Shown one piece after another: positions 8,893 through 19,706 of a stretch of DNA of 26,138 nt. Every line of letters begins with the position of its first letter. Positions within the stretch are counted from its first letter, which is position 1. The stretch covers positions 1 to 26,138 of the IMG/VR virus record IMGVR_UViG_3300049847_000717; one strand, 5' to 3'. Made by a program: the position numbers and the translations under genes. Below the pieces are notes generated by a model. That model searched no databases. It worked only from the letters and a program-made list of their open reading frames with translations, and was not told the DNA's origin. This DNA comes from a virus.

Positions 8893-9273
8893 ATGGGCAA
8901 CGTAGCAAACTTACAACCACAAAAATCGGGTGAACCGTCCAAAAACCCGAATGGTCGCCCGAAAGGCTCGCGTAATCGCTCGACGATTCTCAAGAAATGG
9001 TTGTCCGTCAAAACTTTAATCAAGCATCCGATTACGAAAGAAGACATCAAAGTAACGGTCGAGGACGAAGTAGTTTTATCGCTGATAAAAGAAGCTCGAA
9101 AAGGCGATGTCCGGGCGATCCGTGAAATTCTCGACACGATGTATGGCAAGATCACGGAGAAAACGGAATTGACCGGCGCGGACGGCGCACCGATCAAACA
9201 CAACGTAATCGGCGAAGTTTCATTTCTGATTAACGAGATTTACAGTGATGACAGCGAATCCGGCACTGATTAA
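8893..9273 (+). CDS. terS: Terminase small subunit-like protein (DUF5681 type)
   Basis: A 126-residue basic protein. Residues 10-30 contain the motif KSGEPSKNPNGRPKGSRNRS, the marker of DUF5681, a family usually encoded directly before a large terminase and taken as a small-terminase or DNA-recognition protein. A helical middle (KEARKGDVRAIREILDTMYG) and an acidic end follow. Its last 26 bases overlap the start of the large terminase in another frame, so translation is coupled. It would recognise phage DNA and present it to the packaging motor. The function is inferred from the motif and position. Confidence 0.75.
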   Translation: MGNVANLQPQKSGEPSKNPNGRPKGSRNRSTILKKWLSVKTLIKHPITKEDIKVTVEDEVVLSLIKEARKGDVRAIREILDTMYGKITEKTELTGADGAPIKHNVIGEVSFLINEIYSDDSESGTD

Positions 9274-11644
9274 ATTTATCAATCTCGCTCACGCGGCACG
9301 TCTTCCGAAAAGTTCACTCGAAAGATTTTTGTCGGCGGGTTATGTTCCGCAACCACGGCAACTTGAATTTCACGCCGCCGCCCGCGAATCCGATCATAAT
9401 GAATTATTAACAGAAATTTGCTACGGCGGGGCGCGTGGCGGCGGCAAAACCCATTGCATTTTTGCCGGTGTTTCGATAGATGATTGTCAAATGTTCCCGG
9501 AACTGAATGTTTTATTTTTGCGAAAAAAAGCGGGTTCGGCTGAGGAAAGCGTTGATAATTTGACGCGCCGGATCTTGAGGAACATCGCGCATAAAACAAC
9601 GCGCGGATTGGTTAAATTCGCAAACGATTCAAGAATAAAAATCGGACATTTTCAATATGAAAAAGATATTGACCAATATCTGTCGCTCGAATACGATTGC
9701 ATTATTATCGAGCAAGCCGAACAACTGACGCCCGCCAAACTGATAGATATTCTTTCGGTCAACCGAACATCACGATCCGATTATAAACCGCGAATGTATT
9801 ACTCGCTCAACTGGGGCGGCGTCGGTCACGCATATTTGAAAAAGAAATTTTATTTGCCTTATCTTGAAAACAGAGAAATTGAAACGCGATTTATACCGGC
9901 GACGGTTTATGATAATCGCAAAATAAATAAAGGCTATTTAAAAAATCTTGAACAGCTTGTCGGCTGGAAGCGTAAAGCATGGCTCGAAGGTTCGCCCGAC
10001 ATTGCCGCCGGACAATTTTTTACGAATTTCAATTCGGCAATTCACATTTTGCCGCCCGAAAATATTCCGTTTATGCGCTATGCTCAATTTTGGTGCGCAT
10101 TGGATTACGGCTACGGTCATTATACTGTTTGCTATTTGCTGATGAAATCAGACGGCAAAATTTATGTTTTAGCCGAACATGCCGACCGCAAACAGCCGGT
10201 TTCTTACCACGCGGAAATGATTCACGCTTTACTTGCCCGCTTTGATCTGACGGTTGACGATCTGACGGATTTCGTTGCCGGAACCGATGTTTTCGCGCAG
10301 CGCGGCGCGCGGGATGCGGAAACGATCGCCGATCAATACGAGGAATGCGGCATCAGACTGACCGAAGCGAATACCGACAGGATAAACGGCGCGGCAATGA
10401 TTCTCAAACTTCTCGGCGATGCGGAATTAAACATCGAACCGAAACTTTTCATTTCTTCAAACTGCGCTTATCTGATCGAGTGTTTGCCAACGCTTGAACA
10501 CGACCCGAAACGCCCGGAAGATGTAAAAAAAGTTGACACGGACGAAAACGGCAACGGCGGTGATGATGCTTACGATTGTTTTGTTGCTGGAACTTTAATT
10601 ACCACAATCAGGGGACAAAAACCGATTGAGCAAATCAAAATCGGTGAATTGGTTTTAACGCGAGAAGGTTTCAAACCTGTTTTGTCGAGTTGGAAAAAAC
10701 GAAAACTTCATACGGTTTTGAAGGCTGAGTTTTCGGATGGAACGCAGATAACAGCAACGCCGAATCACCCGCTTTGGTTGGAAGAAAAAGGTTTTACTTA
10801 TCTTGACTCGTTGCGATACGGTGATATAATAAATACTATATGGCAAAACAAGTATTATCAGAAACAATTGAATTCAATGGCATCAAATTCAGACGTTATC
10901 CAAACTCTACAAAATCCAACCATAGACGCTATTACAGTCCGGGCGGCAACCATATTAAACGAGGTGTGCAATCATTACACATTGAAATATGGAAGTCAGT
11001 TCACGGTGAAATTCCTAAAGGCTCTCAAATTCACCATAAAGACGGAAATCCGCTCAATAATTCAATCGAAAATTTGGAATGTCTTACTCCAAAAGAACAT
11101 AGTCAGGAACATTTTTCTAAAACTGAGCGACTTACAAACGCGCGAAAACACATTGAAACAATCAGACCTTTGTCATCTGCTTGGCATTCATCAATTAAAG
11201 GGCGCGAATGGCATTCCAAACACGGAAAAGAAGTTTTTGGAAACAGACCGCAAGTTTCAAAATCTTGTGAACAATGCGGCGCAAATTATTCTACAAAAGT
11301 TCCATATAAATCCCGTTTTTGCTCAAATAAATGTAAATCCAAATGGCGGCGCGATAATAAAACCGACAATGTTATTAAACAATGCGAACGATGTAAAAAG
11401 GAATTTTCGTCAAATAAATACGAAGATTTCCGATTTTGCTCAAAAATCTGTTCAGCCCGTTCGACTGCATTCTTTAGCCGAGAACGGCAAATCTGACGTT
11501 TTCGCTCTTTTTGTTGCTGATTGTCACGAATATTATGCAAACGGAATTCTCGTTAAAAATTGTTTGCGATACGGGCTAATGGTTAATATTTCAACCTATG
11601 ACGCGCCCGAAAGCGGAACACCCTACGACAGTTATTTTCAATAA
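9248..11644 (+). CDS. terL: Terminase large subunit interrupted by an intein
   Basis: A 798-residue precursor; the spliced protein would be 470 residues, a normal terminase size. The ATPase has Walker A G60-GARGGGKT68 and a Walker B-like CIIIEQAEQL around residues 151-160, where EQ replaces the usual DE. The nuclease domain shows D286 (CALDYGYG), D347 (AGTDVFA) and D443 (DDAYD), the spacing expected for the RNase H-like fold. The intein follows D443 directly, and the C-extein resumes with CLRYGL, so the joined sequence DDAYDCLRYGL matches the usual D-x-x-R-Y-G end of terminases. The ATG at 9248 is preferred; a GTG directly before it (9245) is possible. The protein packages DNA into proheads. 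Until splicing occurs its nuclease centre should be disrupted. Confidence 0.9.
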   Translation: MTANPALIKFINLAHAARLPKSSLERFLSAGYVPQPRQLEFHAAARESDHNELLTEICYGGARGGGKTHCIFAGVSIDDCQMFPELNVLFLRKKAGSAEESVDNLTRRILRNIAHKTTRGLVKFANDSRIKIGHFQYEKDIDQYLSLEYDCIIIEQAEQLTPAKLIDILSVNRTSRSDYKPRMYYSLNWGGVGHAYLKKKFYLPYLENREIETRFIPATVYDNRKINKGYLKNLEQLVGWKRKAWLEGSPDIAAGQFFTNFNSAIHILPPENIPFMRYAQFWCALDYGYGHYTVCYLLMKSDGKIYVLAEHADRKQPVSYHAEMIHALLARFDLTVDDLTDFVAGTDVFAQRGARDAETIADQYEECGIRLTEANTDRINGAAMILKLLGDAELNIEPKLFISSNCAYLIECLPTLEHDPKRPEDVKKVDTDENGNGGDDAYDCFVAGTLITTIRGQKPIEQIKIGELVLTREGFKPVLSSWKKRKLHTVLKAEFSDGTQITATPNHPLWLEEKGFTYLDSLRYGDIINTIWQNKYYQKQLNSMASNSDVIQTLQNPTIDAITVRAATILNEVCNHYTLKYGSQFTVKFLKALKFTIKTEIRSIIQSKIWNVLLQKNIVRNIFLKLSDLQTRENTLKQSDLCHLLGIHQLKGANGIPNTEKKFLETDRKFQNLVNNAAQIILQKFHINPVFAQINVNPNGGAIIKPTMLLNNANDVKRNFRQINTKISDFAQKSVQPVRLHSLAENGKSDVFALFVADCHEYYANGILVKNCLRYGLMVNISTYDAPESGTPYDSYFQ
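10803..10830 (+). promoter_or_regulatory. Predicted sigma70-type promoter inside the intein
   Basis: TTGACT at 10803-10808 (five of six consensus bases), a 16-base spacer, and a perfect TATAAT at 10825-10830 preceded by TG at 10822-10823 as an extended -10. Transcription would begin about 10836-10838, two to four bases before the ATG of the HNH gene. The sequence also encodes the conserved LDSLRYGD part of intein block B, so coding and promoter functions overlap. Activity is inferred from consensus only. Confidence 0.6.
10840..11496 (+). CDS. HNH homing endonuclease encoded out of frame inside the intein
   Basis: A 218-residue protein in a frame shifted against the terminase/intein frame. 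The HNH core at residues 47-91 has the pattern H-x2-I-W then GEIPKGSQIHHKDGNPLNN, IENLE and H87, with catalytic candidates H65/H66, D68, N70 and N78. It is typical of HNH_3-type homing nucleases. Residues 20-45 (YYSPGGNHIKRG) resemble the short DNA-binding lead segments of such enzymes. Two Cys4 zinc ribbons follow: C143/C146/C161/C165 and C182/C185/C200/C204. No good SD precedes the ATG, but a promoter ends ten bases upstream, so a near-leaderless message is likely. It stops just before intein block F. It would cut intein-free terminase alleles and so drive intein spread; that target is inferred. Confidence 0.85.
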   Translation: MAKQVLSETIEFNGIKFRRYPNSTKSNHRRYYSPGGNHIKRGVQSLHIEIWKSVHGEIPKGSQIHHKDGNPLNNSIENLECLTPKEHSQEHFSKTERLTNARKHIETIRPLSSAWHSSIKGREWHSKHGKEVFGNRPQVSKSCEQCGANYSTKVPYKSRFCSNKCKSKWRRDNKTDNVIKQCERCKKEFSSNKYEDFRFCSKICSARSTAFFSRERQI

Positions 11645-11649
11645 TCTGC

Positions 11650-11671
11650 AAAAATAATTCAAAAATAATTC
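11650..11671. repeat. Tandem 11-bp direct repeat after terL
   Basis: AAAAATAATTC occurs twice in a row, beginning six bases after the terminase stop, in an A+T-rich intergenic stretch. Its role is unknown; it may be a binding site or simple slippage. Confidence 0.5.
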
Positions 11672-11701
11672 GTTTATTTTAAGTTTTAGCCTGTTTTTAA
11701 C

Positions 11702-11730
11702 TTGCAATAATAATATATCTATGTAATAAT
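11702..11730 (+). promoter_or_regulatory. Predicted promoter for the small-gene block
   Basis: TTGCAA at 11702-11707, a 17-base spacer and AATAAT at 11725-11730 preceded by TGT, an extended -10 layout. It lies in the 131-base gap after the terminase gene and would start transcription near 11737. A short hairpin TACTC/GAGTA (11737-11751) and a good SD (CGGAGAG) follow before the ATG at 11776. Both hexamers deviate from consensus, so confidence is moderate. Confidence 0.45.
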
Positions 11731-11775
11731 TAGTCATACTCTAAATGAGTAAATAAAAAAACGGAGAGTAAAACA

Positions 11776-12234
11776 ATGAAAAGTTACGCATATTATCAGG
11801 AAAATGAAATGGTGCGGGAAGCTGGTTTGGCGATGGGTTTGGGGAACCACACAAAATATGAAAAAAATCAAAAAGTATTAATTGCCGAAATCGGCGGCGC
11901 ACAGTTTTTTTATGAAGTGCAAGCCAATAATGAAAAGGCTATTGTGATGAAAGAAAGTGGTTGCGATGCGCGAATCATTGCTCCAAGTGTGCCGCGATTT
12001 TCCGGTAATGAAGTGCCGGAAAATACTTACATTAAAACAGGCAAAGAAACTTGGGATAAACCACCGCTGGAATGTGTGAATTTGCCGGTTTCTTATTCTG
12101 ATGCATGCCAGATTGCCGAAGCCAAATTGGTAAGATTAGGCGATTCGGTGAAAGTTTCAATTGAAAGTGAATCAATTGAAAGTGAAGATGAAGATAATAC
12201 GCCTTACTTCAAAGGAGATGAGTTAGTTTTTTAA
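11776..12234 (+). CDS. Unknown acidic protein, first gene of the small-gene block
   Basis: A 152-residue protein with a good SD (GGAGAG) nine bases before the ATG. The first 40 residues are helical with Gly/Met (MGLGNHTKYEKN). The middle has beta-like segments (KVLIAEIGGAQFFYEVQ, then CDARIIAPSVPRF), and the end is very acidic (SIESESIESEDEDN). Two exact copies of a 15-base unit at 12157-12186 encode the SIESE repeats, a recent slippage event. It is the first gene behind the predicted promoter at 11702. I do not recognise a family and there is no signal peptide or membrane helix. Confidence 0.65.
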   Translation: MKSYAYYQENEMVREAGLAMGLGNHTKYEKNQKVLIAEIGGAQFFYEVQANNEKAIVMKESGCDARIIAPSVPRFSGNEVPENTYIKTGKETWDKPPLECVNLPVSYSDACQIAEAKLVRLGDSVKVSIESESIESEDEDNTPYFKGDELVF

Positions 12235-12284
12235 GCGAGAACGGGCGCAAATGTCCAAAACCGAATTTTTGGATAAATTACGAA

Positions 12285-12392
12285 ATGAAATTTCAAGGCA
12301 ATTTTAATAAATCAACCCGCGCAGACATCGCTTGCTTTATCGGCGCGATTCTGTTCGGGATTCTGGCGGAGATTTTAGCGAGGTTTTTATGA
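12285..12392 (+). CDS. Mini-membrane protein, copy 1 of a paralogous pair
   Basis: Thirty-five residues: a short basic lead (MKFQGNFNKSTRAD), one hydrophobic helix (IACFIGAILFGILAEIL) and the end ARFL. The same pattern occurs in the 36-residue product at 13100: R-[AT]-D-[IV]-A-C-F, then a helix, then L-[AT]-R-F-L at the stop. That conservation supports both as real genes although each is short and the SD here is weak. The stop overlaps the next ATG (ATGA at 12389). An 18-codon frame at 12251 overlaps in a different frame and is less convincing. Function is unknown; a holin-like, toxin-like or membrane-signal role is possible. Confidence 0.6.
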   Translation: MKFQGNFNKSTRADIACFIGAILFGILAEILARFL

Positions 12393-12628
12393 AAGAAGAA
12401 ATAGACGACATCATTCAAGAAATAAAAAAGAAACGAAAAGTTGTCAGTTCGTCGGACAATTATTCTGAAACCGAATGGCAAGCGATTGATTCATACAATC
12501 TCGGATTGACCGAAGCGATTGAAATTATCGAACGAAGAAATGCTAAAGATGATAAAGGTTGTCAATTTGATGGCTTTTATCAATCGGTTCTCAGCGAGCC
12601 GGACGAAGATTTTATGATGGGGCTTTAG
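12389..12628 (+). CDS. Small unknown helical protein
   Basis: Seventy-nine residues beginning with a charged helix (MKEEIDDIIQEIKKKRK), then SETEWQAIDSYNLGLTEAIEIIERR and an acidic end (SEPDEDFMMGL). The start at 12389 is chosen because it overlaps the stop of the mini-membrane gene (ATGA). The frame is open further upstream, but that part would run through the mini-gene. The pattern is that of a soluble helical protein. No family is recognised. Confidence 0.6.
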   Translation: MKEEIDDIIQEIKKKRKVVSSSDNYSETEWQAIDSYNLGLTEAIEIIERRNAKDDKGCQFDGFYQSVLSEPDEDFMMGL

Positions 12629-18971: not shown

Positions 18972-19024
18972 ATAGATGTAGTATAATTATTGTAAGTAAA
19001 ATTACAATAAGGAGCTACATCTAT
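18972..19024 (+). promoter_or_regulatory. Hairpin over the SD and start codon of the HNH gene, with an internal -10 box
   Basis: The outer stem is a perfect 10 bp, ATAGATGTAG (18972-18981) with CTACATCTAT (19015-19024), and takes in the first two bases of the start codon. The inner stem is 9 bp, TTATTGTAA (18987-18995) with TTACAATAA (19002-19010). The SD AAGGAG (19009-19014) is split between inner stem and internal loop. TATAAT at 18982-18987 fills the opposite side of the loop. No good -35 is seen. Confidence 0.7.
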
Positions 19025-19706
19025 GAAGCAATGTATCCAGTGCGGCGAAAACAAGTTCTTTGAACAATTCTATGTTAAGCGGAAATTGCCGGACGGCACT
19101 AACCAATATCAATCATATTGCAAAGATTGTTATGCGGAACGGCAAAAAAATCCTGAGACAAAGAAATCTCCTTTTAAGAAGGTGGTAATGACGGCGGAAG
19201 AGCGTCGGGAAAGGCGAAATGAGCAAGCCCGACTTTACAACCAGAAACCTGAGCGCAAAAAGTATATGAGTAAATATGCTAAAGAAAATGCGGATAAGGA
19301 AAAGGAAAAGGCAGTCCGATATTACCAAAATCATAAAAACGAGATTATTGCTAAAACAAGGCTTTACCGGAAATTAGAACCGGAAAAAGCGCGTTTAGCG
19401 GTAAAAAAATGGCGCAAAGCAAACGAGGATTATCTTGTTCCGCAAAACGCAAAACGCCGCGCAAAAGTGTTAAGCGTGATAGGTGTGTTTACTGCTAAAG
19501 AATGGCAAGAACAAAAAGAACGGCAAAATTTTATTTGCCTGATGTGCAAGCGAAAAGAACCGGAAATTAAATTAACTGCTGACCACATCATACCGCTTAC
19601 ATTAGGCGGAACAAATACGATTGACAACATTCAAGGGCTATGTAAATCCTGCAATAGCAGAAAACACAATAAAACACTTGATTTGAGAAATGAATTGATT
19701 AAATAG
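19023..19706 (+). CDS. Free-standing HNH endonuclease with N-terminal zinc ribbon
   Basis: A 227-residue, very basic protein. Residues 4-36 hold two C-x2-C pairs (C4/C7 and C33/C36) forming a zinc ribbon. Residues 50-165 are Lys/Arg/Glu-rich and helical. Residues 172-215 form an HNH domain with C172/C175, D187-H188 (TADHIIPLTLGG), N202 (TIDNIQGLC), C207/C210 and H215 (NSRKHN), the zinc-bound McrA/HNH type. It is probably a mobile homing nuclease that cuts phages lacking it; cutting near the capsid gene is inferred. It sits between the capsid gene and the next head gene, with a hairpin over its ribosome site. It may also assist packaging, as HNH proteins do in some phages. Confidence 0.85.
   Translation: MKQCIQCGENKFFEQFYVKRKLPDGTNQYQSYCKDCYAERQKNPETKKSPFKKVVMTAEERRERRNEQARLYNQKPERKKYMSKYAKENADKEKEKAVRYYQNHKNEIIAKTRLYRKLEPEKARLAVKKWRKANEDYLVPQNAKRRAKVLSVIGVFTAKEWQEQKERQNFICLMCKRKEPEIKLTADHIIPLTLGGTNTIDNIQGLCKSCNSRKHNKTLDLRNELIK

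Follow-up and report, generated by a model that had tools for sequence, protein, structure and literature searches.

How could an endonuclease gene that lies wholly within the coding sequence of an intein, in a different reading frame, be expressed? The question is raised by a 26-kb IMG/VR virus record (IMGVR_UViG_3300049847_000717; 26,138 nucleotides, hereafter the window). We propose, at a probability of roughly 0.7, that a promoter located in the intein sequence drives a nested HNH homing endonuclease gene in the -1 frame, giving a message with little or no leader; the gene may also be autorepressed. The host gene encodes a terminase and is immediately preceded by a DUF5681 gene.

9245-11644, plus strand: terminase large subunit ORF interrupted by an intein in the same frame, from the ORF list and PHROG terminase matches; start GTG at 9245, or ATG at 9248
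10577-11560, plus strand: predicted intein, CFVAGT...VKN, which splits the nuclease motif of the terminase between DDAYD and CLRYGL

The prediction of an intein is based on sequence motifs and a modeled HINT fold. The splicing blocks CFVAGT, TPNHPLW, and DCHEYYANGILVKN followed by C are present (N-terminal Cys, blocks A/B and F/G, and Asn then Cys), and C1, H64, and N328 are invariant in the alignment. Pfam Hint_2 matches above the cut-off, Intein_splicing below it, and TIGR01445 (NCBIfam) just below it. An intein profile matches solved inteins (E 7e-16). In the AlphaFold2 model, residues 1-90 and 291-328 of the intein form a HINT fold with pLDDT mostly >90, and the top Foldseek match of the model is the gp41-1 intein (E 4e-7). 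A group I intron was considered in place of an intein and rejected, as there is no Rfam match within 9000-12500. The left end of the record carries a radical-SAM-like gene (phrog_9298; 100-1131) and a secreted-looking nuclease (phrog_14168; 1781-2548).

The HNH gene is entirely contained within the intein, and the intein frame is open throughout the overlap.

10840-11496, plus strand: HNH endonuclease gene (product of 218 aa) nested in the intein, in its -1 frame; the predicted N-terminal peptide starts MAKQVLSETIEF or AKQVLSETIEF

The gene matches Pfam HNH_3 above the cut-off (E 8e-17) and PHROG 15471 (E 1e-35), and its product carries two CxxC...CxxxC motifs in addition to HNH_3. In an alignment of 34 sequences H66, N74, and N78 are invariant, and the window protein retains the invariant residues and the cysteines. 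AlphaFold2 folds the HNH frame with a pLDDT of 95.3, versus mostly <50 for the same DNA read in the intein frame, between the HINT parts. The overlap is therefore structured as HNH and a linker in the intein. PHROGs 30251 and 35162, which match the terminase ORF (9245-11644), cover in their alignments the HNH overlap as read in the intein frame, and so include linker that the nested gene has shaped. Foldseek returned only weak matches for the HNH model, with I-HmuI at rank 4 (E 0.95). We regard the nested HNH as a putative homing endonuclease; cleavage of intein-less alleles is suggested indirectly by the co-variation of a motif with the extein described below. An unrelated second HNH gene (Pfam HNH/HNH_5; 19023-19706) directly follows the capsid gene, has a good Shine-Dalgarno sequence (SD; aaggag), and is of the free-standing homing type.

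The arrangement is not confined to the window. A search with the HNH recovered about 230 related virus loci (numbered L010, L185, etc.), and in 137/161 non-redundant loci the HNH is read in the -1 frame relative to a host frame that is itself open. Start codons in these loci were assigned by rule, as the first ATG in the 60 nt that precede the HNH match, or else GTG/TTG. A search with the N-terminal part of the intein, which is blind to the HNH, gave 78 loci, and a nested HNH is present in about 70. The intein frame is free of stops across the HNH in 117/117 loci; synonymous shuffling of the HNH keeps it open with a mean probability of 0.057 per locus. The cultured phages TJE1 and Highwayman have the same arrangement in records annotated only as terminase, and free-standing HNH relatives adjoin terL or terS. 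In TJE1, a Tetrasphaera phage, the nested gene is apparently of the leadered type. Several loci depart from the common form. L028 (1155-4373) is a single open frame with two inteins, each containing a nested HNH of the family. The only relative found with a nested HNH in the other alternative frame is L034 (1866-2420). In L014, L022, L029, L030, and L036, all of proviral or bacterial-isolate origin, a stop ends the N-terminal half of the intein and is followed by an HNH gene with SD and TATAAT; the inteins appear to be split, with the endonuclease gene separating their two parts.

Among loci scored from the intein-based search the nested HNH is always in the -1 frame, as would be expected if programmed -1 frameshifting from the intein frame produced an intein-HNH fusion. 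We consider such a fusion very improbable. An unsystematic look upstream revealed no obvious slippery heptamer, a TGA (10822) and an ATG stand at the start of the HNH frame in the window, and the relatives have their own ATG and often an SD.

The proposed source of a separate message is a promoter-like site immediately upstream of the HNH start codon.

10803-10808, plus strand: -35 hexamer TTGACT, in codons CTT GAC TCG (intein L D S)
10822-10823, plus strand: TG of an extended -10, from a sequence scan
10825-10830, plus strand: -10 hexamer TATAAT, formed by the third base of GAT plus ATA AT
10836-10838, plus strand: predicted transcription start, inferred as 7 nt downstream of the -10, with a leader of 2-4 nt

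The initial annotation had described TTGACT, a 16-nt gap, and TG-n-TATAAT overlapping the codons of the LDSLRYGD segment, and all of these were found at 10803-10830. It had ranked the site as one of the two best promoter matches in the window. The site is indeed top-scoring, but it stands alone as the only 11/12 sigma70-like match on either strand, with runner-up sites at 10/12. These scores use a sigma70-like consensus, from which the sigma factor of the host may differ. The gap between the end of the -10 and the HNH ATG at 10840, previously given as ten bases, is nine nucleotides (six in many relatives), and a start seven nucleotides past the -10 falls at 10837. The reported lack of an SD before the ATG holds in the window: the sole SD-like string, GGTGAT (10820-10825), is too far upstream. 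The window by itself is insufficient to establish a promoter, because a Markov simulation of its sequence gives 0.53 sites scoring at least 11/12 per 26 kb over both strands by chance. What lifts the predicted promoter beyond chance is its position just before the nested start and its conservation in relatives.

To assess conservation, we scored the strongest promoter within the 66 nt that end at the HNH start and compared it with a null of sequences encoding an unchanged intein protein, with codons drawn according to local usage. Promoter strength exceeds this null in 118 non-redundant loci (mean Z 1.04, se 0.10), versus Z of 0.14 and -0.30 in control windows from the same inteins and terminases. 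Sites scoring at least 11.5 number 19, compared to 4.0 expected. An additional 45 loci, drawn from the intein-based search, served as a replication and gave the same result (Z 1.53, se 0.16, vs. 0.01, se 0.10, in the control), with seven sites scoring at least 11.5 where 0.8 are expected. Individual codons follow the same pattern. The Ile codon after GD, which builds the -10, is ATA in 15/18 relatives against an expectation of 3.3. Preceding the first Asp, the codon that sets up TTGA has T as its last base in 19/42 (8.1 expected). It had been stated that the promoter should be abandoned if the hexamers were lost, at synonymous positions, from relatives retaining the HNH frame; the codon counts go in the opposite direction. 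A perfect TTGACA-16-TATAAT lies six nucleotides before the ATG in L185, L121, and L305. Inteins lacking the HNH are too few to serve as a negative control: L293 and L300 are without a -10, and the mini-intein L273 keeps TATAAT.

These hexamers could instead be a by-product of the intein motif LDxLRYGDII, with no promoter present and ribosomes initiating internally on the terminase mRNA to make the HNH. The general intein motif of GD followed by a hydrophobic residue favors GAT A....T, and the synonymous-randomized sequences also peak at six nucleotides, where they put 19.7/118 best sites. Part of the promoter-likeness does stem from this protein motif and shared descent. The codons are nevertheless biased toward the hexamers beyond what the protein needs, and controls in the same inteins are unbiased. 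The SDs found in some relatives would serve on a long mRNA, but the window and most relatives with a near promoter are without one, although that lack could itself reflect constraint from the intein motif. On balance we find an absence of any promoter unlikely, and a sigma70-type promoter within the intein coding sequence is, judging from the sequences compared, very probable.

Given such a promoter, the distance to the start codon bears on how the message would be translated. In 26/45 replication loci the best -10 is exactly six nucleotides before the ATG, and the usual +1 therefore falls on the A of the ATG. An SD is present in only 4/34 loci with the promoter 4-10 nt from the start, versus 41/68 with the promoter at least 18 nt away (p=2e-6); the replication loci split in the same manner (6/27 near vs. 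10/11 far, p=1.5e-4). Examples of the leadered kind are L103 (TTGACA-17-TACAAT, 21 nt from the start, GGAGGT) and L071 (TTGATA-16-TATAAT, 36 nt, AAGGAG). Leaderless and leadered labels are scattered over the HNH tree. The SD split weakens once phylogeny is taken into account: the nine supported independent pairs, few as they are, agree with it in direction (5.3 opposite vs. 0.1 same, median p 0.06). The window, with a predicted leader of 2-4 nt, is grouped with the leaderless kind. The earlier suggestion that the parts fit a leaderless mRNA thus gains support from relatives that have the -10 six nucleotides from the ATG and no SD, while displaced starts more often have one. From the spacing, the HNH message in this window is probably leaderless or nearly so. 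Its translation would depend on how well the host tolerates leaderless mRNA.

The nine-nucleotide spacing also admits an ancestral promoter with a leader, the start codon of the window having since moved and its HNH being poorly expressed or not at all, i.e., a decaying gene. Two near relatives, L137 and L066, have TATAAT at the same codons as the window with the HNH start further downstream, and in L066 the ATG is preceded by a CAGGAG SD; both would be leadered. Decay does occur in the family: in L010 (2377-2994) a stop breaks the HNH frame and the intein frame remains open. In the window, however, both frames are open and the HNH keeps its conserved residues and cysteines, which makes decay there quite improbable.

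The spacer of the promoter contains a second signal, a copy of the homing-site motif that the initial annotation overlooked.

10811-10821, plus strand: homing-site-like 11-mer TTGCGATACGG in the promoter spacer, identical to 11564-11574; putative operator/target mimic
11564-11574, plus strand: extein copy of TTGCGATACGG, directly after the intein; presumed homing site of the HNH/intein

Across the family the internal motif tracks the extein of its own locus. Internal/extein pairs include LVDG/LVDG (L011), ISY/ISY (L180), VF/VF (L205), VW/VW (L256, L265, and L278), SG/SG (L305), and VY/VY (L108). Whole-region nucleotide similarity between the internal region and its own extein is significant but small in effect; a register-specific motif test took its place. 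Over three residues in 84 loci the internal motif matches its own extein 161 times, versus 122 in permuted pairings, and 0/20000 permutations were as high. In the 19 exteins without RY there are 30 motif matches, where permutation predicts 8.9. The extein copy lacks the -10 (register score +3.55 vs. -4.03). Synonymous and third codon positions show no excess match between the internal motif and the extein; the mimicry is confined to non-synonymous positions. A wobble-tolerant homing enzyme would explain this lack, but a protein-level cause may also account for it.

We tentatively interpret the spacer motif as an operator through which the HNH may bind its own promoter and repress itself. I-TevI of T4 offers a precedent, with a homing-site-like operator over its promoter and demonstrated autorepression (PMC2988022). 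The autorepression step has a competitor, in which the motif is a relic of the invasion of the intein by the HNH gene and not an operator. The flanks of intron endonuclease genes can be similar to the sites these enzymes target (PMC3984707), as are those of I-TevII, which are cut when fused, and the free-standing relatives beside terL or terS would suit such an invasion. Against a relic, the motif follows its own extein (VW, SG, VF, VD, and SY pairs) and seems maintained rather than decaying. An origin as a relic is somewhat doubtful, if less so than the other alternatives above.

The mechanism we propose draws on the presence and conservation of the promoter, the start spacing, the SD split, the dual coding, and the co-variation of motif and target. 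A long terminase mRNA would yield the precursor of terminase and intein, and the part of it that overlaps the HNH would be only a disordered linker. A short mRNA from the intein promoter, with a predicted transcription start at about 10837, would provide the HNH by leaderless translation from the ATG at 10840. We infer further that the HNH would cut intein-less terminase genes at the LRYG-coding site, leading to homing, and that it would bind the copy of its target motif between the -35 and -10, leading to autorepression as in I-TevI.

Parts of this scheme are familiar from other mobile elements. I-TevI, I-TevII, and I-TevIII of T4 likewise have their own promoter just upstream of the endonuclease gene within the element, overlapped by a homing-site-like sequence. 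Theirs is a group I intron, whereas here the element is an intein and the gene overlaps a translated frame; their genes have a leader and SD under RNA control, whereas here the promoter abuts the ATG without an SD. The autorepression of I-TevI is experimental, and the likeness here is one of sequence. Full-length inteins (LAGLIDADG or HNH) also hold an endonuclease between the N- and C-terminal splicing regions, but there it usually shares the intein frame and is released by splicing, and is not encoded by a separate overlapping gene. In collaborative homing, or endonuclease invasion of introns (PMC3984707), the endonuclease is similarly pre-adapted to the insertion site of the element and free-standing relatives adjoin the same host gene; the present case would be the intein version. 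A further parallel may be drawn with the ShiLan paper, in which hidden out-of-frame HNH genes were found in methylases and leaderless translation was guessed (PMC11855218). The hidden HNH of the ShiLan domain in a phage methylase also occupies another frame of an open host frame and lacks an SD. No intein and no promoter are described there, while the present family, of well over 100 loci, shows splicing blocks together with a conserved promoter and target mimicry. Our literature search, in a limited collection, revealed no description of an intein that houses both an out-of-frame endonuclease and a promoter for it.

How hidden out-of-frame HNH genes are translated was left as an open question (PMC11855218). 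The answer offered here is a promoter of their own that begins the mRNA at the AUG or close to it, with an SD taking over where a leader exists. An overlapping gene and its regulatory signal would then be kept inside coding sequence across many viruses, the operator idea of I-TevI would extend from introns to inteins, and the family would provide a natural, testable system for leaderless translation. It is conceivable, though we put it forward with reserve, that these loci represent a widespread class of phage inteins with an overlapping -1-frame endonuclease, its own leaderless promoter, and a spacer operator mimicking the extein target. If true, a short segment of DNA would have three functions at once: encoding the intein, launching the endonuclease mRNA from its AUG, and allowing the endonuclease to turn off its own expression.
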